Positions 33,642 through 45,033 of a DNA stretch of 45,033 nucleotides are shown in pieces (positions within the stretch are counted from its first letter, which is position 1; every line of letters begins with the position of its first letter). A program made the position numbers and the translations under genes. Source of the stretch: an uncultured Ruminococcus sp. (lineage in GTDB: Bacteria > Bacillota > Clostridia > Oscillospirales > Acutalibacteraceae). A model generated the notes under the pieces. The model did no database searches and was not told where the DNA came from. It worked only from the letters and a program-made list of their open reading frames with translations. The stretch lies in NCBI GenBank assembly GCA_902768825.1, contig CACXMR010000031.1, positions 19,973 to 65,005 on the forward strand, read 5' to 3'.

Positions 33642-34445
33642 TCAGGAATTATCGTTATTGCCGTTATTATAACCGTCCTCGTCGTCTTTGTCAAGTGCGC
33701 TCGGCTCCATCAGCCAGAAATCGTCACTCTTCGTGTGGTAAAGCGCCCTTGGTGCCGGCTCGTCGTTATCATCCTCTTTGTAAATGAAGGACACTGGCTT
33801 AGCCTTGCCCTTTTTGACACGGGAAAGGTAAATCGCATTTCTCAGAATAGGCAGAAGAAGAACCAGCAGAACTATAGCGACCACTATGCACCTGACAGCC
33901 ATGTTTGATATATCATCGTCAGTGGGCTGACTGTCGTGAACATCCATCGTTATATAAGCCCAGGAAAGATCATCCGCCGTCAGCCCAAACTTTGAAAGTG
34001 CATCGGACGTCAGACGCTTCTGCACCTCTATAGCATGCTTACCCTCCATGGTCTGCACCCTGCCGGAACAGAAGCACTCACCCAGTCCCTCTCCCTTTGA
34101 AGCCATCTCAATGCTGTAGTAGTCACCGATGCTGTCGGTCTCTCCGAAAAGATAGACTATCTTTTTCTGGGGAGTCTTGACAAAAAGATGTACATAGTCG
34201 GTATTGGCTCCTTTTTCATAAATATATAGCACTATATCCTCAGAGCCGATATAACCCTCCACCAGATCGCCCTCGCTGACATAATAAAGGCTGTTTATGT
34301 CAAATTCATGGTAGGGATAGCTGTTTCTCTTGTCAATGATATTAATGAGCATATAGATATGGTAGCCAAGTACAATAGTTAAAAGAATAATCATTGCAAT
34401 GTAGATCTTGAAAAATTTGATCGGTCTGTATTCCATCAGCTTCAT
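33642..34445 (-). CDS. Two-helix membrane protein of unknown function, paralog 1
   Basis: Not recognised. The 267 residues have an N-terminal helix (FFKIYIAMIILLTIVLGYHIYM), an extracytoplasmic domain of about 140 residues, a second helix (VRCIVVAIVLLVLLLPIL) and a short cytoplasmic tail that is acidic and Asn-rich. The extracytoplasmic domain matches the next gene's product in order: GDLVEGYIGSEDIVLYIYE then VDYVHLFV-like strands with KKIVYLF, and DDLSWAYITMD near its end. The gene follows the paralog by 24 nt and is followed by a terminator. The two likely work together, perhaps as a heterodimer. Confidence 0.75.
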   Translation of the reverse strand: MKLMEYRPIKFFKIYIAMIILLTIVLGYHIYMLINIIDKRNSYPYHEFDINSLYYVSEGDLVEGYIGSEDIVLYIYEKGANTDYVHLFVKTPQKKIVYLFGETDSIGDYYSIEMASKGEGLGECFCSGRVQTMEGKHAIEVQKRLTSDALSKFGLTADDLSWAYITMDVHDSQPTDDDISNMAVRCIVVAIVLLVLLLPILRNAIYLSRVKKGKAKPVSFIYKEDDNDEPAPRALYHTKSDDFWLMEPSALDKDDEDGYNNGNNDNS

Positions 34446-34469: not shown

Positions 34470-35546
34470 TCAATATCTGCGAATCTGTTCGCCGGGTATG
34501 TCTTCCTTCTTTTCCTCGGTGTTCTGATCCACGTAGAAGAATCCTTCCTCATTTACGCCGCCCTGATAGAACTCCACCGGCTCCTCCTTCAAATCCTTTT
34601 TGGCGAGGTTGTGACCCACAAGGCCATACAATCCCGATGAGGCGATAAACCGGTTGCTTGTAAGGATATTCCTGATCTCTTCGCTCTCCTTCTCCTGCTT
34701 CTCGGCACGCCTTTCCTCATCTATCTGCTCAGGAGTTTTTTCGTAGTCGGCGGTAAACTTGTAATCTCCCTTTATCGAGTCAGTGTCAAGCTCCGTGTTT
34801 ACATAGAAGTTTCCGCCTTCGTTTTCCGGAATGCTGTACGGGTCAAGATTTGTAAGCTCTATATCCTCCTTTTTGACCTTCAGCTCCGGCTCCAAAACTC
34901 CCTTCTGCACCAGCAGGCCATAGATAATATTATTGATGGACTTTCTGAGCAGGAACCACAGTCCAGCAAGGAGAGCAACCGTACCCATAAGCGTTGCGAT
35001 CAGAAGTACAGTCCATCTGTGGGTGTCATTGTCAAGGAGAGCTATATTCGTCCATGTGACGTCCTTTGAGTCAAATTTGTATTCGGTATACTTGTTGTGC
35101 ATGAAAAGATTGATCATCATACTGTCTCTGTATGTAAAAGTGAGGGTTCCCACCTTGCCCCTGAACTCAACAGACTGAGCCGTTTTGTTTGAGATACCGG
35201 TGAAGGCCTTTGATGTTTCTTTGGCAGTCTCGCTGTTTGCAGAAAAAACAATTACCTTCTTTTGCTCCGTGAGCACGGCATAGCAATCTACAATACTGCC
35301 GGAGGCAAGCTGATCCTGATATGTAAGTATCACATCTTCAGCGTCAAGCACACCCTGTACCAGCTCACCGCTTTTGAGGTTATCATAATCGGCTTTTGTG
35401 ATCTTCCTGTAATCAACGGAAATAGCCTGCACGATATTGACAAGAGAGACAAGCTGGACAATAAGAAGAACCATAAGGATTATTGAAAAAAACACCTTTA
35501 GCTTCAAAAGCTTCTGAGGCTGATAGTGCATATTCTTGATACTCAT
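34470..35546 (-). CDS. Two-helix membrane protein of unknown function, paralog 2
   Basis: Not recognised. The 358 residues have the same plan as the downstream paralog: a helix near the N-terminus (VFFSIILMVLLIVQLVSLV), an extracytoplasmic domain, a second helix (WTVLLIATLMGTVALLAGLWFL) and a cytoplasmic tail, here about 160 residues, charged and probably partly coiled (EQIDEERRAEKQEKESEE). Matching stretches include SGELVQGVLDAEDVILTY, EQKKVIVFSA and DVTWTNIALLD. The ATG has GGAGG 8 nt upstream. The promoter carries a tandem AGTGAC site shared with the ABC transporter at 44761. Sensing or envelope-stress roles are guesses. Confidence 0.75.
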   Translation of the reverse strand: MSIKNMHYQPQKLLKLKVFFSIILMVLLIVQLVSLVNIVQAISVDYRKITKADYDNLKSGELVQGVLDAEDVILTYQDQLASGSIVDCYAVLTEQKKVIVFSANSETAKETSKAFTGISNKTAQSVEFRGKVGTLTFTYRDSMMINLFMHNKYTEYKFDSKDVTWTNIALLDNDTHRWTVLLIATLMGTVALLAGLWFLLRKSINNIIYGLLVQKGVLEPELKVKKEDIELTNLDPYSIPENEGGNFYVNTELDTDSIKGDYKFTADYEKTPEQIDEERRAEKQEKESEEIRNILTSNRFIASSGLYGLVGHNLAKKDLKEEPVEFYQGGVNEEGFFYVDQNTEEKKEDIPGEQIRRY

Positions 35547-35583: not shown

Positions 35584-35615
35584 ATAATATTCCCTCAAAG
35601 TGACATCTGAGTGAC
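35584..35615 (-). promoter_or_regulatory. Tandem AGTGAC operator and -10 of the paralog operon (site B)
   Basis: The plus strand reads ATAATA (35584-35589, the complement of a TATTAT -10), 6 bp, then CAAAGTGAC (35596-35604), ATCTG, AGTGAC (35610-35615). The repeats are 11 bp apart and cover the place of a -35, which is otherwise absent. It lies between the prfA stop and the ATG at 35546. Site A at 44813-44844 matches it in sequence and spacing. Confidence 0.65.
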
Positions 35616-35628
35616 CAAAAGAAAATAA

Positions 35629-36720
35629 TTATTCGCCGTTAGCAGACAGCGTTCCTGCTTCTGACAGCTGTGAAGCCCGTGCTGCCGTAATCAGGGGGTC
35701 TATCAGCTCATCCAGTGAGCCGTTGAGTATGTCGTCTATTTTGTACAGTGTCAGACCTATCCTGTGATCAGTCACCCTGCCCTGTGGGTAATTATACGTC
35801 CTGATCCGTTCGCTCCTGTCACCCGTACCCACCTGGTCATGGCGCTGGGCAGCCACCATGCTCTGCTGCTTATCTTTCTCAGCCTGCAGCAGTCTTGATT
35901 TCAGCACCTTCATGGCCTTATCCTTGTTTTTATACTGACTCCTTTCGTCCTGACACTCTACCACCAGACCCGTAGGTATGTGTGTTATCCTGATTGCAGA
36001 CTCAGTCTTGTTGATGTGCTGTCCTCCGGCTCCGCTTGCCCGGAAGGTATCTATTTTCAGCTCAGTCGGGTCAATGCTGACCTCCACGTCCTCAGCCTCA
36101 GGCAAAACCGCCACTGTGACAGTTGAGGTGTGTATCCTGCCCTGAGTCTCAGTCTCCGGAACCCTCTGTACCCTGTGGACACCGCTTTCATATTTCAGTC
36201 TCGAATAGGCTCCCTCGCCGCTGAGCATAAAGCTTATTTCCTTATAGCCCCCAAGCTCGGTGTCGGCTGCGTTCATTATCTCCATTTTATAGCCCCGCCT
36301 TACAGCATACATACTGTACATACGGAAAAGCACAGCCGCAAACAGAGCAGCCTCTTCACCTCCGGCGCCGCCTCTTATCTCCATAATGACATTTCTCTCG
36401 TCATTCGGGTCCTTTGGCAGAAGAAGTATCTTCAGCTCCTCCTCTATCCTCCTGATGTCTTCCTCCAGGGAGGCTATCTCCTCCTCAAGCATTTCCGCCA
36501 TTTCCTTGTCGGAATAATTGTCCTCCAGCATTTCCTCTGCCTCAGCCTTGTCCTGCTCCGCCTTTTTATATTCACGGTATTTGAGCGCAAGCGGCTCCAC
36601 CGACTTATATTCCTTCATTGTCTGTGCATACATTTCGGGGTCGCTTACGACCTTCTGGTCACACAGCTTTTCAGAAAGCTCCTCATATCTGTCCTCAAAG
36701 GCTTTTACACTCTCAAACAT
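35629..36720 (-). CDS. prfA: Peptide chain release factor 1
   Basis: RF1 ends translation at UAA and UAG. The 363 residues contain the stop-codon reading tripeptide PET at 188-190 (a PxT form) and the catalytic GGQ at 232-234 in [12 protein letters not shown]. The N-terminal coiled domain is normal. ATG 36720 has GAGG and AGG ribosome binding elements upstream. It follows the DUF951 gene by 35 nt. The usual downstream partner prmC, which methylates the GGQ glutamine, is not here; the paralogous membrane-protein pair occupies the position. Confidence 0.97.
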
Positions 36721-36755
36721 TTCCTGCCCTCACCTCTTCTTTTTTATTGAGCACC

Positions 36756-36944
36756 TCAGCTCTTAGTGATGCTTCTCAGCCCCTTTTCGACCCTGACCCT
36801 CGGCAGCATGATCTCATGTCCGCAGCCCATGCAGCTGAGCTTAAAATCCATGCCGATACGCAGCACACGAAAAAGCTTGTTGTTTTCCTTACCGCAGGGA
36901 TGGGGCTTTTTCATCTCGATAATATCACCTACAGCGATATCCAT
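36756..36944 (-). CDS. DUF951 small zinc-ribbon-like protein
   Basis: A 62-residue basic protein of the DUF951 family, common in Firmicutes. It has the expected layout: VGDIIEMKKPHPCG, then CMGCGHEIMLPR, giving three Cys and a His that could hold zinc or RNA. I place the start at ATG 36944, with AGAGG 8 nt upstream at the end of the peptidase gene. The GTG at 36953 overlaps this site. It begins 15 nt after the peptidase stop and precedes prfA. The function is not known; association with translation or DNA-binding genes is common. Confidence 0.85.
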   Translation of the reverse strand: MDIAVGDIIEMKKPHPCGKENNKLFRVLRIGMDFKLSCMGCGHEIMLPRVRVEKGLRSITKS

Positions 36945-36959
36945 ATCCTTCACCTCTGT

Positions 36960-39020
36960 TTATTTTCTTCGTATTGCTATTATGCCCACAACGAACAATC
37001 CGAAAGCTATCAATCCCAGCACCACAAATACTGTCACGACAACGCTTATCCAGCCCGATCCGTTCTCCGCTGAAACGGCAGAAGCAATGCTCTCAGAGGA
37101 TATCTCCTGTCCCGACTCCGGATGTGACGGCTGAAACACACTGCTCTCCGTCAGAGACACCTGTGAGCTCTGCTCATCCCTGCTGACCACAGAGCTTTCA
37201 TCCATGGCACTGCTTTCCTGTTGACGCTTTGCAGCATAGAAGGCATCCATTTCTCTGCCCATGCGGTCAATGTCGTAAAACCCTGAATAATTCACGCTTC
37301 CGTCGGCTGCTTTGGAGACAAAGCTCACATCCACAGGAACACCGTCATCCACGGTTTTCATATCCTTGTTCACAAATCTTGCGTAGGATGAAATAGCATA
37401 GATCACGCCGTCCGCCGTAGCTCTCTGCAAAACGGCGCAGGTGCCGCCCCCACACCGTTCTCCCATTATCATATATCCCTCATCCTTCATGATCGTCGGG
37501 AAAAGCGTGGCGCAGGAAAAGGACGACCCGCTTGTAAGCACCGCAAAATTGATGTCATCAAAGCTGACAAGCTTATCCTTTATGTCAATAACTCCGTCAA
37601 GATTTCTGTCAGTCAGATTTTTTTGTGTGACAGTCTGATCACCCAGCAGGTTCTGACCAAGGAAGCTGTAGTCTCCTATGATTATGCCCAGCACCTCATG
37701 GAGTGCAACAGTATCCCCTCCAAAATTAGTAGAGATATCCAGCACCACATTTCTCATTCCCTCTGAGCTTGCCCTGATAAGCCCGTTATAGAGTATGGAC
37801 ACGGTATCATCGGGCATAGAGCTGCTTTTGCCGCCCCAATAATCCCTCCAGCCCTGATAATCTACATCAAAGCTGTCAAAGCTTATAAGTGCTGTGCTGC
37901 CGCTGCTGAAATAATTTCCGCTGCCAAGGGCTTTATTCTTCAGCTCACTAAGATTCATATGGATCTCTTTGATATTGACGATTTTTCTGGTGTACTCATT
38001 AACCAGATCGTCAATATCGCTTATGCCGTTTGAATAATCCCTCCCGATGTCTGTGTCGTCTAACATAGACATCAAGGACTTATCTATTAGCAATCCCGTA
38101 TGTCCCCCGTCTGCAAGGTGATAATTGAACAGCCTGTCCATGCCTGCGATGTACTCTCCGGAGAGGGGGGAAAGCAGCAGCTCCTTTGTCCTGCCCTGAA
38201 GCTTTGTCAGCGCAGCGTCAAGACCGGAGCTTTTCATCTCAGCAGCAAAGGGGTTTCTGTCGCTGGGATAGCCGTAAAAATATTCAAGGGAAAACTGCAG
38301 CTCCTTATATGTCATGTCAATAACATCCTGCGGTCTCGAGCCGCTGCTCAATGAGCTGAGGCACGTAGAATCCTCGTTCCTCGCCTGTCCGCCGTTGATG
38401 TCGTCGTAATATGCCATGAAATAAATCTTTTCGTCAGAATAAACGCTTGTCACATAATCCACATTGCCAAAAAGATCGCTGAGGGTCACAAAGGGATAGT
38501 AAACCACCCCATCCTCCTCACGGATGTCAATGCCATACCTGCCAAGGTCGATGGTGACAGGCTTTGCCGGCTTGTCATAGCTTACAGACTCAGGCTTTAC
38601 AAGCAAATCTGGGCCATACATCACAAATTTTACTCCCTCCATCTTATACACAGGAGTAGCCACAAAGCTTGCCAGGTCGTCAGTGGTGAACGCATCCGTT
38701 ACCGTGTCCACCGTCGCAGCATCCCCGCACATGCTCTCAAGATAGGTATATTTGCCGCCTCCATGTGATGTGACCGTCATCTCCCCGTCAAAAAAGACCT
38801 TATAGTAAAGCTCCATGGACATATACGGCACGTTTGGCATATCATCGAAAAAAAGGCATTCCACAGTTTCATTCTCGTCCATGCTCCTGCGATAGACATG
38901 GATATCCCTTTTTTCGGCTCTCGTCTGGGGTGCAGCCTCCGCCCGTAAAAGCGGTGCCGTACCCGTCATAATTATCATTGCAGAAACTACCCATGCAATG
39001 CCCTTGGTGATACGCTTCAT
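36960..39020 (-). CDS. Membrane-anchored S41-like peptidase
   Basis: A 686-residue surface protein. It starts at ATG 39020 behind GGAGGAATAAA, the best ribosome binding site near it; 26 upstream codons are discarded. It has a signal peptide ending near AEAAPQ, an N-terminal beta-rich domain of about 190 residues, then an S41 tail-specific-protease-like region. That region has VVLDISTNFGGDT and the nucleophile loop SGSSFSCATLFP followed by GERCGGGTC. A Ser/Glu linker and one C-terminal helix (VVVTVFVVLGLIAFGLFVVGII) anchor it outside the cell. No PDZ domain is evident. It lies 22 nt after the histidine kinase gene, so it is probably part of its output or signal path. Confidence 0.85.
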   Translation of the reverse strand: MKRITKGIAWVVSAMIIMTGTAPLLRAEAAPQTRAEKRDIHVYRRSMDENETVECLFFDDMPNVPYMSMELYYKVFFDGEMTVTSHGGGKYTYLESMCGDAATVDTVTDAFTTDDLASFVATPVYKMEGVKFVMYGPDLLVKPESVSYDKPAKPVTIDLGRYGIDIREEDGVVYYPFVTLSDLFGNVDYVTSVYSDEKIYFMAYYDDINGGQARNEDSTCLSSLSSGSRPQDVIDMTYKELQFSLEYFYGYPSDRNPFAAEMKSSGLDAALTKLQGRTKELLLSPLSGEYIAGMDRLFNYHLADGGHTGLLIDKSLMSMLDDTDIGRDYSNGISDIDDLVNEYTRKIVNIKEIHMNLSELKNKALGSGNYFSSGSTALISFDSFDVDYQGWRDYWGGKSSSMPDDTVSILYNGLIRASSEGMRNVVLDISTNFGGDTVALHEVLGIIIGDYSFLGQNLLGDQTVTQKNLTDRNLDGVIDIKDKLVSFDDINFAVLTSGSSFSCATLFPTIMKDEGYMIMGERCGGGTCAVLQRATADGVIYAISSYARFVNKDMKTVDDGVPVDVSFVSKAADGSVNYSGFYDIDRMGREMDAFYAAKRQQESSAMDESSVVSRDEQSSQVSLTESSVFQPSHPESGQEISSESIASAVSAENGSGWISVVVTVFVVLGLIAFGLFVVGIIAIRRK

Positions 39021-39042
39021 TTTATTCCTCCGTCCATGCTGG

Positions 39043-40311
39043 TCACGGTTCATCCTCATCGGCAGCGTCACTGCCGTTATCAGGCAGTCTGTTGTCATTG
39101 TGAGGCAGCAGCTTGAAGAATTTTATAGTAAACTCGCTGCCCACGCCCTCCTCTGACTGCACGCTGATGTATCCTCCGCACTTCTCGATTATACTTTTTG
39201 ACAGCGCAAGGCCTATCCCCACGCTGGTATCCCCTGAGTTGCTGCCCTTATAGAATCTCTCAAATATATGCGGAAGATCCTTCTTTGATATGCCGCAGCC
39301 CGTATCTGATATTACCAGCTTTACCAACAGCGGATTGTCCTCCGCCCTGAGAGTCACCGATCCGCCCTTTTTTGTGTGCTCTATACAGTTTTTGACGATG
39401 TTTGTCACCGCCTCGCACACCCATTTCATGTCGCAGTTAAGGCTGATGTCCCCGCACTCACCCTTTACCTCGACCCCTTTATCAGCGGCTATTGCAGAGG
39501 TGTTTGATATGCTGATATTGATAATGTCCTCCACCTTCACCTTTTCGCTCTTAAAAACGATGGTGTTTGCGTCCAGCTTTGACAGTGTGAGCATAGACTG
39601 GGTCAGGAAGGTCAGGTGGAGCACCGAATTCCTGATATCACCCAAAAACTCCCTTTTCAGCTCCTCAGGCATATCGCCCTCCAGTATTCCGTCAAGCATT
39701 ATCATTATTGACGTAAGCGGCGTCTTGAGCTGGTGGGAAATATCAGCCAGGGAGTCCTTGAGCTTTTCCTTTTCCCCTGCAGAGCGCTCTGACTGTTCCC
39801 TGAGCATGACCGTAGTTTTATATATCTCACTGCTCAGCACCGAGACGTACTCCTCCTTGATGTCGTCAAAGCGCAGTCTGTAGTTTCCTCCGTTGATCTT
39901 TGAAAGGTACTGTGTCAGCTTCTTATCCTGTTTTTTCCGCAGGTTCACATACACTCCGAAGCATATCACGGAGACGCAGCCGAGTCCGAGGCAGGCTGAT
40001 ATTCCAAGAGAAACTGCCGCAGCGTAGTTGGTTTTGTTTTGAAGCACCGCTGCTTCCCTTTCGGTGATGCCGTATTTTCTCAGGACGTCCTCAGCCGAAT
40101 ATCCGCCCTCTGTAGAGTTAAGGATCTCTGCGATATCCCTTTCGTCCACATCGGGATATTTTTCCTTGACAAGGCCGACGATAGCAGAGATCGCCATTCG
40201 CTCAGAATCCATTGCGGCGGTAAGTCCTAACTGCACCAAAACCGCAGTCAGCAGCGCAAACGCCATAGTTATGACCGCAAATATTATGAAGAATTTTGAT
40301 GACAGCTTCAT
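39043..40311 (-). CDS. Sensor histidine kinase, two membrane helices
   Basis: A 422-residue kinase. Two helices (residues about 7-30 and 98-122) flank an extracytoplasmic loop of about 65 residues. That loop holds a helical, acidic stretch (KEKYPDVDERDIAEIL). Cytoplasmic parts are HAMP-like, then the H-box with His193 (DISHQLKTPLTS), N-box (EAVTNIVKNCIEH), G1 (DTGCGI) and G2 (GIGLALS). It overlaps the response regulator gene by 4 nt (ATGA). The loop is larger than in BceS-type sensors, so direct ligand sensing is possible. The signal is unknown; antimicrobial or wall stress is the likeliest theme given the neighbours. Confidence 0.93.
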   Translation of the reverse strand: MKLSSKFFIIFAVITMAFALLTAVLVQLGLTAAMDSERMAISAIVGLVKEKYPDVDERDIAEILNSTEGGYSAEDVLRKYGITEREAAVLQNKTNYAAAVSLGISACLGLGCVSVICFGVYVNLRKKQDKKLTQYLSKINGGNYRLRFDDIKEEYVSVLSSEIYKTTVMLREQSERSAGEKEKLKDSLADISHQLKTPLTSIMIMLDGILEGDMPEELKREFLGDIRNSVLHLTFLTQSMLTLSKLDANTIVFKSEKVKVEDIINISISNTSAIAADKGVEVKGECGDISLNCDMKWVCEAVTNIVKNCIEHTKKGGSVTLRAEDNPLLVKLVISDTGCGISKKDLPHIFERFYKGSNSGDTSVGIGLALSKSIIEKCGGYISVQSEEGVGSEFTIKFFKLLPHNDNRLPDNGSDAADEDEP

Positions 40312-40961
40312 TTTGCCTCCATTCTATAGCCGATGCCCTTTACGGTGCGTATCAGCTCTGTGTCCAGCTTTTGCCTGATCCTCTTTATGTAGACCGTCAG
40401 TGTATTATCGTTTACAAAATTTCCCGCAATATCCCATATCTTTTCAAGTATCAGCTCTCTTGTGACCACCTGGCCTGCGTTTTGCATCAGCATGATGAGT
40501 ATGCGGTATTCAAGAGCCGTCAGCTCCACCTCTGTGCCGTCCTTCATAACTATGTGTTTATCCGTATCCACCGAGATATTTCCCACGGTAATGACGCTTC
40601 CCTTGCCGTTAGCACTGTTATCAAAGCGCTTGATCCTTGCAAGCAGCTCCCTTGACGAGAAGGGCTTTGTGATATAGTCATCCGCTCCGAGCTCAAGCCC
40701 GCCCACGATATTATCCTCATCATCAAGCGCCGTCAGGAAGATCGCCGGAGCCTGATTGATCCTTCTGATCTCCTTGAACAAGTCAAAGCCGTTGCCGTCG
40801 GGCAGGGTAACATCCAGGATCATCAGGTCATACTCACCGCCGGAGCTTGCAATTGCGCTCTCGCAGTCCTCGCACAGTGTGACCTCATGTCCCTTTGACT
40901 TCAAAGTATATACCAGACCCTTAGAAATAATCCTGTTATCCTCAACCAGCAGAATGTGCAT
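40308..40961 (-). CDS. OmpR-family response regulator
   Basis: A 217-residue regulator with a receiver domain and a winged-helix DNA-binding domain. The phosphorylation site is Asp50 (LMILDVTLPDG), with acidic residues at VEDN and the conserved Lys in ITKPF. The C-terminal half has the OmpR/PhoB fold, with TVYIKRIRQKL as recognition helix region. The start is ATG 40961, with GGAG 9 nt upstream; a GTG one codon earlier is less likely. It precedes the kinase and the peptidase in one transcript from a consensus promoter. It is the best candidate to bind the tandem AGTGAC sites at 35596 and 44825. Confidence 0.95.
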   Translation of the reverse strand: MHILLVEDNRIISKGLVYTLKSKGHEVTLCEDCESAIASSGGEYDLMILDVTLPDGNGFDLFKEIRRINQAPAIFLTALDDEDNIVGGLELGADDYITKPFSSRELLARIKRFDNSANGKGSVITVGNISVDTDKHIVMKDGTEVELTALEYRILIMLMQNAGQVVTRELILEKIWDIAGNFVNDNTLTVYIKRIRQKLDTELIRTVKGIGYRMEAK

Positions 40962-41020
40962 CACATTTCACTCCTTATCACAAATTCTCCGCCATCACAA
41001 GGCTAATTGCCGTCACTAAT

Positions 41021-41049
41021 ATTATAATCTCTCAATAGCCCTATGTCAA
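41021..41049 (-). promoter_or_regulatory. Consensus promoter of the regulator-kinase-peptidase operon
   Basis: Minus strand: TTGACA (41049-41044), 17-bp spacer, TATAAT (41026-41021). It has no tandem AGTGAC site; only one AGTGAC half lies just downstream on the minus strand (41017-41012). Expression is probably constitutive. Confidence 0.85.
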
Positions 41050-41096
41050 ACTATCTTTCCCTTCAGCGGGGCAAAACAAATGTCATAACAAAGCAA

Positions 41097-41126
41097 AAGA
41101 GGAAAAGCCGGTAAGATACCGGCCTT
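41097..41126 (-). terminator. Terminator of the ABC transporter operon
   Basis: GCCGGTA and TACCGGC (41107-41123) form a perfect 7-bp stem with a 3-nt loop. The minus strand continues TTTTCCTCTTTTGC. It lies just after the permease stop. Confidence 0.85.
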
Positions 41127-41158
41127 TCTGGGTTGGAATATCGAAATGTGAGGAATAA

Positions 41159-44086
41159 TCAAATGTTGTCGTTGCGGATGGTCTCGATAATGTTCTGCTT
41201 GTTAAACTTTGCAATGGAGAATCTCATTATCGCAAAGAGCAGCAGGAGCACAAACAGCAGGCAGATCAGTATCGGCATCCAGGGCACCATATAGTAAACG
41301 TCCTTATATCCGTAACCGCCCATGGTGTTGCCGATTGCCCAGGCAAGACCCCAGCCGCTGAGCACTCCCAGCGGAACGCCTATGAGGAGCGACTTTGCTG
41401 TGTAGAGGGCGCTTTCGAGAAGTATCATCCTGTGAAGCTCCCTGCTTGTCGTGCCGATGGATCTCAGCATAGCAAACTCCTTCTGGCGGAGCTTCATGTT
41501 GGTGGTAACTGTATTGAACAGGTTAGTAATGCCTATGAGAGTGATGACTAAGATGAAGCTATAGACAAATATCTGAATTATCAGAAGCATTGATTTTGCG
41601 GTGCTCACAAGATGTGAATAGTTGACGACGCTATAAATGCTGTTGTTGCCGTTTTCCTGCTCCTCCTTCATCCTGTCCTCAAAGGCGTCAGGATCGCTGA
41701 CTCCGGCGTCTATATAGGCATAGCCTGTCTCACCGTATGCCTTGCTGAACGTCTCATCTGTCACGATGATGACCTTCTTTGAGTAGTTATCGCTTGCAAA
41801 GCTGGTAGCCGGTATATCCTCTATGGCGGCGGCTATCTCTATCTCCGCCTTGTGTGTCTCGGTGACTTCCTCATACAAGGAATCATAATCATATCCATCT
41901 TCGTAATATTCATCTTCGTTATTGCTGTTTTCTGCTGAGGCCTCGATCGTCTCCGGATCCTTCTCCACATATCTCACTGAGACGCACTCGCCCTTGAGCA
42001 CCAGTCCTACGGGATCCTTGAAGAGCTTAGTCTTCTCGGATTCTCTCAGAGTATAACCGTCCTCGCCACGGTCGATTATGTTATAGTTCCAGATAAAGCC
42101 CTTATCCTTGCACTGCTCATAGTCAAGGCCGCTCTTGTTGCAAAGCTCCTTGAAGCTGTCCTTATCTACAGCCATGATCCTGTAGCTCACCTTGTTATCC
42201 GCAATCACGTCCTGAGTAATGCGTGAATAATACTTTCCTCCGGGCTTTACCTCGTCACAGAGCCACTCGTCCTTTACCTCAAATTTGAAATCGTCAGAAG
42301 TATAGTTGATCCTGAACTTTGTAAGTCCTATTTCGGATGCAAGATTTTCGATATACTGCATCTGACCGTTCTTCGGGAAGAGGTAGCTATCATAGTACTC
42401 ATTGCCGCATTTTTCGTCTGCCGAGACCTGAACGGTAATGTTGTATTCGGAATTGGCTATTATGTAGTAATCCTCATTCTTCATCACGTTCATAACGTAT
42501 TCAACGCTGGAATTGATGGCAAGGAAGAGGAACACACTGACTATAATGGAGATAACCGTTGTGCGATACTGCTTGCGGCTGCGCTTCATATTCTTCCATG
42601 CGATGCTGCCGCCGATGCCGAACACCTTTGAAATCCACTTGGGTGTCTTATAGCCGTTCTTGAGCTGCTTCTTCGAGATATTGACGTCCTTGTTGCTCCT
42701 GATGGCTTCCATCGGTGAGGTGCGTGAAGCGCTCATTGCCGATGCCAGCGCCGAGAAGATTATCGTTACGATGCCGATCACCACAGCAAGGAGTATCGAA
42801 GACCAGTTCATTCCAAACACAAGGTCGTAGGAGCCGAGCTGCTCCTTAAGTAAGGTGTTTGAGAAGAACACAAGACCTGCTGCGATCCCTGTCCCCAGCA
42901 GCACTCCGAGAGGGATGCCGATAAGGCCCAGGAGGAAGGCTTCAAAGAAAACATTCTGTCTGATCTGTCTCGGAGTAGCGCCCACAGAGGAGAGCATACC
43001 ATAGAGACGGGTTTTTTCGGTGATGGAGATAGCGAAGCTGTTGCGGATGATGAAAACGCTGGCAAACATGACTATCACCATGCCGATAAGCATGACCTGG
43101 AAGGAGCTGAGGCTGAAGCCGCCGTTGTTCTGAGTAAGAATACCCTTTGCCGAAAGCAGACCGTTGTTTATACCGAAGTACATGATATGGAGAGGGTTGT
43201 TTTCAAGGGCAGCCGTTAGCTCTTCATCCGAAGTGCCGTTATACATTCCGTAGTTTGTGAGGTAACGGTCTATATTTCCTTCACCAACGCCCAAAAGCTC
43301 TGCGATAAATTCCAAATAATCCTTCTCGTACTCTTCTTTAAGGTCAACAAAGAGAATCTCTGATTTTTCCGGCTCCTTGAAGGTATATGCCCTTATAATG
43401 CTGGAGTAGGGAGAATTGGCGTAGGCGTCCGAGCTGAGGAAGCCGTTCTGGCTCTTGAGTATGCCGACCACCGTATAGGTCTTTCTTTCGGTGACCACCC
43501 ATTCCTCGTACTCGCCGAAATCGCCATAGGCATTCACGGGTATCTCACGGCCGCCAAAGAGTTCCACAAACATCTCTTCGTTGGGAGCGCCCTCTTTTAA
43601 CATACGCTTGCCGTTCTCCACCTCTATCTTGTCGCCGACCTGATACTGCTTTGCAGAGTAGCGGTTGATATCAGGTGAGAGAAGAAGCTCATCGTCCTTT
43701 TCGGGATAGCGTCCGCTGTCAAGCTTGCAGATGCTTGCGTCAAGAGTAGCATAGTTAGTGCCGTAGATCATGAAGTATTTTGTGTGGGTGTACTTGGGAT
43801 CCTCAAACCTATACTGTCCGATACTTTCAAGGGAATATATATCCTTGACCTTGCGGTTAGCCCTGATGGTGCGCATCTCCTCAGTCCCGAAATCGCCGTA
43901 AAAAAACACTTCATAATCTCCATCGCTGACCAGTGAGGAATTGTAGTTTGACAGGTCAAGGCTCGATACGATGCCTGCCACGGTAGTGATGAGCGCTACC
44001 GAAAGCATTATTCCTATTATGGTTACGATCGTCCTGCTTTTATTCATCAGCAGGTTCTTGATCGTCAGCCTTCTGAGTAGTTTCAC
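41159..44086 (-). CDS. FtsX/MacB-type ABC permease, two fused units
   Basis: A 975-residue permease. It holds two similar units, each with one helix, a large extracytoplasmic domain and three helices. The first helix is TIVTIIGIMLSVALITTVAGIV; the three-helix set near the middle includes MLIGMVIVMFASVFIIRNSF; the second unit begins TTVISIIVSVFLFLAI and ends with MPILICLLFVLLLLFAIM. This plan fits MacB-like mechanotransmission transporters acting on peptides or lipids at the outer face. The start is GTG 44086, with GAGGAGG 8 nt upstream inside the ATPase end; the gap to the ATPase stop is 3 nt. A short acidic stretch (EDEYYEDGYDYD) lies in the second outer domain. Confidence 0.9.
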   Translation of the reverse strand: MKLLRRLTIKNLLMNKSRTIVTIIGIMLSVALITTVAGIVSSLDLSNYNSSLVSDGDYEVFFYGDFGTEEMRTIRANRKVKDIYSLESIGQYRFEDPKYTHTKYFMIYGTNYATLDASICKLDSGRYPEKDDELLLSPDINRYSAKQYQVGDKIEVENGKRMLKEGAPNEEMFVELFGGREIPVNAYGDFGEYEEWVVTERKTYTVVGILKSQNGFLSSDAYANSPYSSIIRAYTFKEPEKSEILFVDLKEEYEKDYLEFIAELLGVGEGNIDRYLTNYGMYNGTSDEELTAALENNPLHIMYFGINNGLLSAKGILTQNNGGFSLSSFQVMLIGMVIVMFASVFIIRNSFAISITEKTRLYGMLSSVGATPRQIRQNVFFEAFLLGLIGIPLGVLLGTGIAAGLVFFSNTLLKEQLGSYDLVFGMNWSSILLAVVIGIVTIIFSALASAMSASRTSPMEAIRSNKDVNISKKQLKNGYKTPKWISKVFGIGGSIAWKNMKRSRKQYRTTVISIIVSVFLFLAINSSVEYVMNVMKNEDYYIIANSEYNITVQVSADEKCGNEYYDSYLFPKNGQMQYIENLASEIGLTKFRINYTSDDFKFEVKDEWLCDEVKPGGKYYSRITQDVIADNKVSYRIMAVDKDSFKELCNKSGLDYEQCKDKGFIWNYNIIDRGEDGYTLRESEKTKLFKDPVGLVLKGECVSVRYVEKDPETIEASAENSNNEDEYYEDGYDYDSLYEEVTETHKAEIEIAAAIEDIPATSFASDNYSKKVIIVTDETFSKAYGETGYAYIDAGVSDPDAFEDRMKEEQENGNNSIYSVVNYSHLVSTAKSMLLIIQIFVYSFILVITLIGITNLFNTVTTNMKLRQKEFAMLRSIGTTSRELHRMILLESALYTAKSLLIGVPLGVLSGWGLAWAIGNTMGGYGYKDVYYMVPWMPILICLLFVLLLLFAIMRFSIAKFNKQNIIETIRNDNI

Positions 44087-44089
44087 GGC

Positions 44090-44761
44090 TCATTCCTCCT
44101 CTGCAAGCTTACCGTCACTTATACGGATGATCCTGTCTGCCTCCTTGGCTATCTCCAGGTTATGTGTGATCATGATGATCGTCTGGTGGAAGGTCTTGTT
44201 TGTCATCTTGAGTATGCTTACAATATCGTCGGTTGCCTTTGAGTCAAGGTTTCCAGTAGGCTCGTCCGCAAGGAGTATTGCAGGATTGTTGATGATAGCT
44301 CTTGCTATTGAAACTCTCTGCTGCTGACCGCCCGAGAGCTGATTGGGAAGGTTCTTTTTCTTATCAGCAATGCCCAGGGCGTTCATTACCTCATCGACTC
44401 TCTCTTTATCCACGGTCCTGCCGTCCAGCTCCATGGGCAGGGTTATATTTTCCTCTGCTGTGAGGATCGGGATGAGGTTATAAAACTGATAGACTATACC
44501 GATCTGCCTTCTGCGGAAGATCGCCAGCTTATCATTGTTCATTTTATTTATTTCATTTCCATCGATGAAAATGCTGCCGCTTGTGGGTCTGTCAACGCCG
44601 CCGAGCATGTGCATAAGGGTGCTTTTACCGCTGCCGCTCTGACCGACAATTGCCACAAATTCCCCCTGCTGTACGCTCATTGAGATGCCGTCCACAGCAT
44701 TGAAGATATTTTCGCCGCTTCCGTATGTCTTTACAAGATTTTCCGTTCTGAGAATTTCCAT
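44090..44761 (-). CDS. ABC transporter ATPase, LolD/MacB type
   Basis: A 223-residue ATPase that powers the FtsX-type permease. Walker A is at 40-47 (GQSGSGKS), the signature is LSGGQQQRVSIARA, Walker B is ILLADEPTGNLD and the switch His is in IMITHN. I start it at ATG 44761 (MEILRTENLVK), 8 nt after AAAGGAG; the 39 extra codons of the longer frame run through the promoter and are rejected. The promoter (site A) has a tandem AGTGAC operator. The two-gene unit resembles antimicrobial peptide transporters found next to two-component systems. Confidence 0.95.
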   Translation of the reverse strand: MEILRTENLVKTYGSGENIFNAVDGISMSVQQGEFVAIVGQSGSGKSTLMHMLGGVDRPTSGSIFIDGNEINKMNNDKLAIFRRRQIGIVYQFYNLIPILTAEENITLPMELDGRTVDKERVDEVMNALGIADKKKNLPNQLSGGQQQRVSIARAIINNPAILLADEPTGNLDSKATDDIVSILKMTNKTFHQTIIMITHNLEIAKEADRIIRISDGKLAEEE

Positions 44762-44812
44762 ATCAAGCACTCCTTTAGCTGATCTTTGTTTGTCTGTCGC
44801 TTTCTGTAGATA

Positions 44813-44844
44813 ATAATACATGACCAAAGTGACTTCAAAGTGAC
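44813..44844 (-). promoter_or_regulatory. Tandem AGTGAC operator and -10 of the ABC transporter (site A)
   Basis: The plus strand reads ATAATA (44813-44818, the complement of a TATTAT -10), 6 bp, then CAAAGTGAC (44825-44833), TTCAA, AGTGAC (44839-44844). The repeats are 11 bp apart, as in site B, and no other -35 is present. The start point would be about 45 nt upstream of the ATG at 44761. Confidence 0.65.
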
Positions 44845-45033
44845 TGCCGCCAGCTTGACGCTGGACCCCTTTTCGCATTGATAGTCACTTCTATGGGATT
44901 GTTCAGTGTCGCGTGATGATAGTCGTTTCCAAACCGACAACACAAAAGTTTTGGCGGCAAGCTGCCGCTCCCGTGTTCGCGTTGGCAGAAAAACGTTCTC
45001 AAAGTTGGCTGCTCGCGGCTCATAGTCTTCCAA
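44845..45033. repeat. Mosaic intergenic repeat, copy R6 (runs to the window edge)
   Basis: It contains CCAGC-TTGAC-GCTGG (44850-44864), GCGTGATGATAGT (about 44911-44923, shared with R5), CACAAAAGTTTTGGCGGCAA (shared with R1) and GCGGCA-AGC-TGCCGC (44954-44968). The open frames crossing this stretch are made of repeat sequence and are not called as genes. Confidence 0.75.

Follow-up and report, generated by a model that had tools for sequence, protein, structure and literature searches.

In Escherichia coli the pho boxes take the place of the -35 element; among Bce-type modules the kinases are intramembrane-sensing, with almost no outer loop, and BceB has a layout with one large outer domain. 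The pho boxes are 11-nt direct repeats, built on CTGTCAT for PhoB of E. coli and on GTTCACC for PhoP of Streptomyces coelicolor, according to two papers (PMC4415409, PMC6988585). The second of these sources also gives GTnAC-n6-GTnAC as the site of AfsQ1 of S. coelicolor, which is said there not to regulate its own operon (PMC6988585). For RR_1586/CD1688 of C. difficile, two reports give the consensus DRTTAAGNWWW, present twice, and describe the regulator as a repressor of the tested promoters and of sporulation genes (PMC6222199, PMC9380558). In the vanG system of Enterococcus faecalis, the regulatory genes are reported to have a separate sigma-70 promoter whose elements are 17 bp apart, and the inducible output promoter combines a poor -35 with direct repeats for a VanR-type activator that does not regulate itself (PMC4405338).

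The locus compared here with these systems lies in a window of 45,033 nucleotides (the whole stretch of DNA that was analysed) from a rumen bacterium, an uncultured Ruminococcus sp. Two sites of its minus strand, 35615-35584 and 44844-44813, each read GTCACT-N5-GTCACT-N9-TATTAT, on the same strand as the genes. An earlier note had placed and drawn both sites, and direct reading of the minus-strand sequence bore out its coordinates and layout, including the identical 11-bp period and 9-bp gap to the -10 and the lack of a consensus -35 at either site. Its estimate that about 17 of 21 operator positions are shared becomes, on recount, 17 of 20 over CAAAGTGAC-N5-AGTGAC. The second site (44844-44813) also contains a weak TTGAAG-N17-TATTAT in a shifted register (9/12).

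35584..35615, minus strand: operator and -10 upstream of the gene of a 358-aa membrane protein; exact match to the full pattern
35610-35615 and 35599-35604, minus strand: half-sites of this operator, with the -10 TATTAT at 35584-35589, read from the sequence
44813..44844, minus strand: operator and -10 upstream of the ABC transporter operon; exact match to the full pattern, kept before ATPase orthologs
44839-44844 and 44828-44833, minus strand: half-sites of this operator, with the -10 TATTAT at 44813-44818, read from the sequence

The first operator is situated between prfA and the 358-aa gene. Drawn from 89 distinct sites, the logo has the form [AT]GTCACTTTA-N-[AT]GTCACTTTR followed by a TATAAT-like -10, and is preceded by an A-rich and then a T-rich stretch; conservation extends to bases that the search pattern did not specify, which favours a genuine site. 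With the conserved A seven bases past the -10 as the transcription start, the two repeat units would lie at about -38 to -21. The longest open reading frame call for the ATPase begins upstream of the second operator and runs across it (44771-44878), and automatic annotation that takes this start would bury the promoter within a gene.

The search proposed in the earlier note, for AGTGAC-N5-AGTGAC with ATAATA, gave a divided answer, since half-sites alone occur at chance level and it is the near-exact pattern with its -10 that is rare. GTCACTN5GTCACT with at most one mismatch was found 9 times in the whole genome and 17 times in the reversed control, the half-site pair with at most two mismatches 3 times in the window (2.79 expected), and the full pattern with at most three mismatches 25 times in the whole genome and 25 times in the control. 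The exact form GTCAC-N6-GTCAC-N10-TATNAT occurred three times in the 2.49-Mb genome, against none in the reversed control, and a fourth site matched the full pattern with one mismatch. Across 60 genomes, the own one included, this exact form occupied 12 places in 10 genomes, with 0 in the reversed control of all 60. A chance likeness of the two promoters, for which the chance-level frequency of half-site pairs alone might be invoked, retains a negligible probability in the face of these 12 places against 0, of the further counts of 15 against 0 in the genus and 7 against 0 in the class given below, and of the retention of the site in orthologs with 55-60% protein identity.

The near-exact sites of this genome lie in the promoters of the ABC transporter, of the pair of 358-aa and 267-aa membrane proteins, of a 333-aa lipoprotein and of a 410-aa membrane protein, the last two on another contig. 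With a position matrix trained on 86 sites without this genome and applied to 165 kb, the four own sites scored 28.5-42.9 bits, the next best 12.4 bits, and the reversed control at most 5.4 bits. No weaker members are claimed in this genome, either from the matches with two or three mismatches or from the matrix over the 165 kb. These results support a predicted regulon of at least four transcription units in this genome, not two. Within the genus, 12 of 64 genomes together have 15 occurrences of the stricter pattern GTCACTT-N4-GTCACTT-N8-TATNAT, nine before the ATPase, three before the lipoprotein family and three before the 358-aa family, whereas the control has none. In the class sample the same pattern had 7 places in 7 of 391 genomes, with 0 in the reversed control, and all seven precede MacB-type ABC ATPase genes, one being the own site and six others lying directly upstream. 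Five of these six ATPases share 47-64% identity with that of the window; at the sixth place (L246) the script chose another frame, but L246 is nearly the same as L245 in its promoter and first codons.

The transporter that recurs behind these sites is encoded in the window by two adjacent genes.

44090..44770, minus strand: ATPase of the ABC transporter, 226 aa, with its start set at 44770; ABC_tran 135 bits
41159..44086, minus strand: permease, 975 aa, with a duplicated FtsX layout and two large outer parts; FtsX and MacB_PCD above cut-off

In NCBIfam the ATPase is LolD/MacB-like, under the curated cut-offs. The permease matches FtsX at 118.6 bits and MacB_PCD at 29.5 bits (cut-off 27), and its model (mean pLDDT 78) has two outer parts; the fold search ranks YbbAP of E. 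coli first (TM 0.42 over the query, E 1.9e-15), ahead of MacB, LolE and BceB entries. FtsX permease domains, a MacB_PCD outer domain and a cognate ATPase are the combination that defines MacB/LolCDE/YbbAP (type VII) transporters, and the transporter of the window has it. Judging by the company that such transporters and two-component systems usually keep, the likeliest guess for the circuit would be action against envelope-active compounds.

The operator is kept before orthologs of the ATPase over a wide range. The permease is present in 34 of 61 genus genomes (E 1e-100 or better), and 29 of 31 distinct ATPase upstream regions carry the operator with at most three of 20 mismatches, the reversed control showing at least five; four of the 31 had entered only via the motif, and without these the count is 25 of 27. 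A single permease as query over the named genomes found no relative, and an alignment query, limited to the best 80 of 262 relatives, yielded 78 named loci. The ATPase promoter could be examined in 64 of these, and 47 of the 64 have the operator with at most three mismatches (reversed control at least five in all 64); since some named loci are the same DNA as other genus genomes, the counts for 31 regions and 64 loci are not independent. The more general box GT(A/C)A(C/T)TT-N4-GT(A/C)A(C/T)TT, with at most two mismatches, is found in 59 of the 64 promoters against one of 64 in the reversed control. The five promoters without it comprise the two transporters that have no regulator (L173 and L175), two with diverged boxes (L177 and L193) and one, L239, whose locus has a regulator, yet whose ATPase promoter lacks the box; the last three, all with a regulator in the locus, speak against the link between regulator and operator.

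Several relatives show variations on this arrangement. In Ruminococcus bromii (L198, L210) the operator of the module has diverged to TTCACTTTACAGTCATTT, followed by TATAAT, and the regulator shows EDNT instead of NDNT, which makes a cultured organism available for the diverged form. Two operator and -10 units follow one another in series at L045 (646 and 727), L133 (1501 and 1584) and L125 (1401 and 1501), positions referring to the matched strand, and such doubled units precede the ATPase or the lipoprotein gene. Two or more tandem permease genes are present in L114, L115, L118 and L120, some with an operator before the added copy.

The targets named in the earlier note, a MacB-type transporter and a membrane paralog pair, hold up in that the operator is kept before their closest orthologs.

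34470..35546, minus strand: 358-aa membrane protein, predicted target, with the operator 37 nt upstream of its start
33642..34445, minus strand: 267-aa paralog of the 358-aa protein, next gene and probable co-target; found with the 358-aa query at E 8.8e-10

For the 358-aa family, 30 of 51 matches were examined. The site is present in all four of the closest copies (at least 55% identity, own included) and in none of the 26 other loci examined (at most 37% identity), among which L101 has almost no upstream DNA. A paralog of the 267-aa type also lies downstream of the 358-aa gene in L105 and L123. The model of the 358-aa protein (mean pLDDT 69) has two membrane helices flanking an outer domain, for which the fold search gave weak OB-fold matches and none at E 0.001 or better. 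The 333-aa lipoprotein has the operator in all eight copies matched over near-full length, a count that excludes many matches confined to its last 120 residues, and the 410-aa protein has it in four of four copies with at least 40% identity and in none of four others, one of which (L284) starts inside the gene. In Pfam and NCBIfam no cut-off was reached by the lipoprotein or by the three membrane proteins (358, 267 and 410 aa), and the lipoprotein profile gave nothing convincing against solved structures.

The last 120 residues of the lipoprotein (L008:1634-2635) recur across the genus in short proteins (frames of about 150-200 aa) and in larger ones, and the lipoprotein copies of L252 and L253 have this domain twice. 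L253 has an additional operator with -10 (one mismatch) on its reverse strand, at position 330; it stands before an unrelated gene of some 330 codons that lies immediately upstream of the lipoprotein gene and may be another target in that species. Contig 26 of the own genome (L001:1501-1517) carries another tandem GTCACTTTCCCGTCACT, which faces the opposite way some 15 bp from the 410-aa operator, where a fumarase-like gene has its 3' end; no suitable -10 accompanies it (8.6 bits by matrix), and it could form a hairpin with the 410-aa operator.

That an OmpR-family regulator and a kinase lie between the two sites, as the earlier note had it, is confirmed by their domain matches.

40308..40961, minus strand: response regulator of the OmpR/PhoB family, 217 aa, which is proposed to read the operator; Response_reg and Trans_reg_C
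39043..40311, minus strand: histidine kinase, 422 aa, with two membrane segments; HisKA and HATPase_c

The regulator has a receiver domain (87.3 bits) and a Trans_reg_C winged helix (84.5 bits), both above their cut-offs. Orthologs were found in 36 of 64 genus genomes (E 1e-45), among them 11 of the 12 strict-motif genomes; the exact strict motif is present in only 11 of the 36 regulator-positive genomes, and looser forms are common. In four genomes whose ATPase promoter is visible no regulator was found. G018 and G012, both with a completeness rating of 100%, lack the operator (9 of 20 mismatches) before a transporter whose ATPase is 77% identical and which is followed by unrelated genes. In its stead the promoter reads TTGAAA-N17-TATAAT (11/12), with a -35 of the sort that selection would favour once an activator is lost. 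In the remaining two, G027 (81% complete) and G034 (79%), the operator persists, with 0 and 3 mismatches respectively; their regulator may be encoded in the missing DNA, or they may be cases against a link between regulator and operator.

The sequence of the regulator changes along with that of the operator. Residue 186, in a stretch that we take to be the recognition helix, is Asn at all 41 loci whose operator is of the GTC or TTC type and at both loci with the TTA form, and His at all 11 loci with a GTA operator; these counts leave out five loci without a found operator (all Asn) and one with an unrelated regulator. The replacement of Asn186 by His in the recognition helix accompanies that of GTCAC by GTAAC. 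As the GTA group represents one change on a tree of 59 rows, this covariation counts as one coincidence, placed where contact is expected.

It is conceivable that the operator is genuine and is read by another OmpR-family regulator, the neighbouring pair merely travelling with the transporter. The genome offers other candidates (17 at first look), OmpR-family half-sites resemble one another, and G027 and G034 have the operator with no regulator found; against this stand the loss of the operator from the two complete-rated genomes without the neighbouring regulator, the change of residue 186 in step with the operator, and the presence of the regulator in 11 of 12 strict-motif genomes, and we regard such a reader as unlikely. 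The neighbouring OmpR-family regulator is probably the reader of the operator. A regulon with a shared operator, the central proposal of the earlier note, gains support from the rarity of the full pattern, the four conserved orthologous promoters, the co-occurrence of the regulator, the missing operator in the two complete-rated genomes without regulator, and the covariation of residue and base.

The position of the site over the -35 place could also suit a repressor site, a bent-DNA element or a sigma-factor element, and some OmpR-family regulators do repress, RR_1586 of C. difficile with its 11-nt direct repeat being an example. However, no consensus -35 lies beneath the site, the complete-rated genomes without regulator have a good -35, as expected if an activator had supplied the -35 function, and the exact distance from operator to -10 is kept across distant relatives, so that a role mainly other than that of an activator site appears very improbable.

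The preferred reading, which we hold with high confidence, is that the tandem repeat is the site of the regulator encoded at 40308-40961, which, driven by the kinase, would act like PhoB as the activator of a small envelope regulon. Judging from the protein families, the kinase encoded at 39043-40311 would sense a signal and phosphorylate the regulator. A head-to-tail dimer of the regulator would then occupy a pair of GTCACTT half-sites with an 11-bp period, at the position of a -35, and the anatomy of the promoters suggests that it would recruit RNA polymerase to a -10 that has no -35 partner, as PhoB does at the pho box. The conserved sites predict as targets the ABC transporter operon, the 358/267-aa pair, the 333-aa lipoprotein and the 410-aa membrane protein. 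The regulator and kinase would be made constantly from their own consensus promoter, and only the output would be inducible.

The supply of the regulator and kinase can be read from the DNA between permease and regulator and from the gene that follows the kinase.

41102..41128, minus strand: terminator-like hairpin of 12 pairs in the gap between permease and regulator genes, from a pattern scan of the sequence
41021..41049, minus strand: perfect sigma-70 type promoter TTGACA-N17-TATAAT (12/12) upstream of the regulator gene
36960..39098, minus strand: S41-peptidase-like protein directly after the kinase, start uncertain; Peptidase_S41 34.7 bits

The region has 18 promoter-like matches, where shuffles predict 12.6, and the promoter at 41021..41049 is the only one of them that reaches 12/12. 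That the operator drives the regulator and kinase too, since they follow the transporter on the same strand, is made improbable here by the hairpin and by this perfect promoter of their own. In relatives, promoter matches of 11 or 12 of 12 occur in 26 of 48 permease-regulator gaps, a raw count that includes some near-copies, and no GTC-form operator was found in the 45 gaps that are long enough (best 6 mismatches). Six gaps measure only 9-44 nt, and in such relatives transporter and regulator may share a common transcript. In the window, regulator and kinase appear to be outside the control of the operator and to have their own consensus promoter, and the layout suggests a sensor that is produced all the time and an output that is induced. 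The S41-peptidase-like gene, which follows the kinase also in L104, L105 and L119, is possibly part of the regulator-kinase transcript, and its product could be part of the signal input.

The breadth of the module and two natural experiments are the standout points. On a wider and more tentative reading, to which we give somewhat less than even chances, this is a widespread unnamed module of gut Clostridia and some Bacilli that uses GT(C/A)A(C/T)TT-N4-GT(C/A)A(C/T)TT for the -35 and joins one MacB/YbbP-like transporter family to further targets that differ by lineage (a membrane pair with an outer domain, a lipoprotein whose domain recurs elsewhere and a multi-span protein). If true, it would represent a common envelope or antimicrobial stress response in which the supply of regulator shifts between constant and self-amplifying. 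A two-component system of gut bacteria gains an operator sequence, a likely reader and a list of targets, and three protein families below the Pfam and NCBIfam cut-offs gain a first regulatory context. The natural experiments, a missing regulator with a -35 present and Asn-to-His with GTC-to-GTA, make for sharp predictions on the joint change of OmpR-family regulators and their sites.

Among the matches listed from open-licence full texts we found no description of this operator or circuit, which is weak evidence of absence. The nearest relatives in form are the pho boxes of PhoB and PhoP, which likewise combine an OmpR-family regulator with head-to-tail 11-nt units of seven conserved and four looser positions; the half-site core GTCA(C/T) is near the E. 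coli pho box and differs by its CTT end. The Pho regulon itself does not fit, as the regulator scores 167.7 bits against TIGR02154 (PhoB; cut-off 296.2) and the four near-exact sites of this genome precede no phosphate gene. The operator also fits the GTnAC-n6-GTnAC of AfsQ1, and AfsQ1 is said, as is proposed here, not to control its own operon; AfsQ1 however belongs to another phylum and has antibiotic and nitrogen genes as targets, whereas the operator described here has a conserved, fixed distance to the -10 and a CTT extension. RR_1586/CD1688 is likewise an OmpR-family regulator of Clostridia with an 11-nt direct repeat, and differs in its half-site RTTAAG. The circuit of the window resembles the vanG system in the separate promoter of the regulator, in a predicted inducible output with poor -35 and direct repeats, and in the apparent lack of self-regulation by the activator; vanG differs by 12-bp repeats, another consensus, sites upstream of the -35 and the extra repressor VanU, and the regulator falls far below the VanR families (vanR-B 145.3 against 480 bits, vanR_ACDEGLN 141.7 against 350 bits). 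A Bce module is contradicted by the roughly 60 residues that hydropathy places between the two membrane segments of the kinase, and by a permease model with two outer parts that ranks YbbAP first and BceB entries lower, even if the BceRS-BceAB antimicrobial-peptide modules also place a two-component system next to an ABC transporter of the FtsX type whose outer parts are large (PMC3023708). On sequence grounds it is well supported that the predicted regulon is a new one, of the PhoB-type tandem-repeat activator kind, and distinct from the PhoB, VanR and Bce modules.
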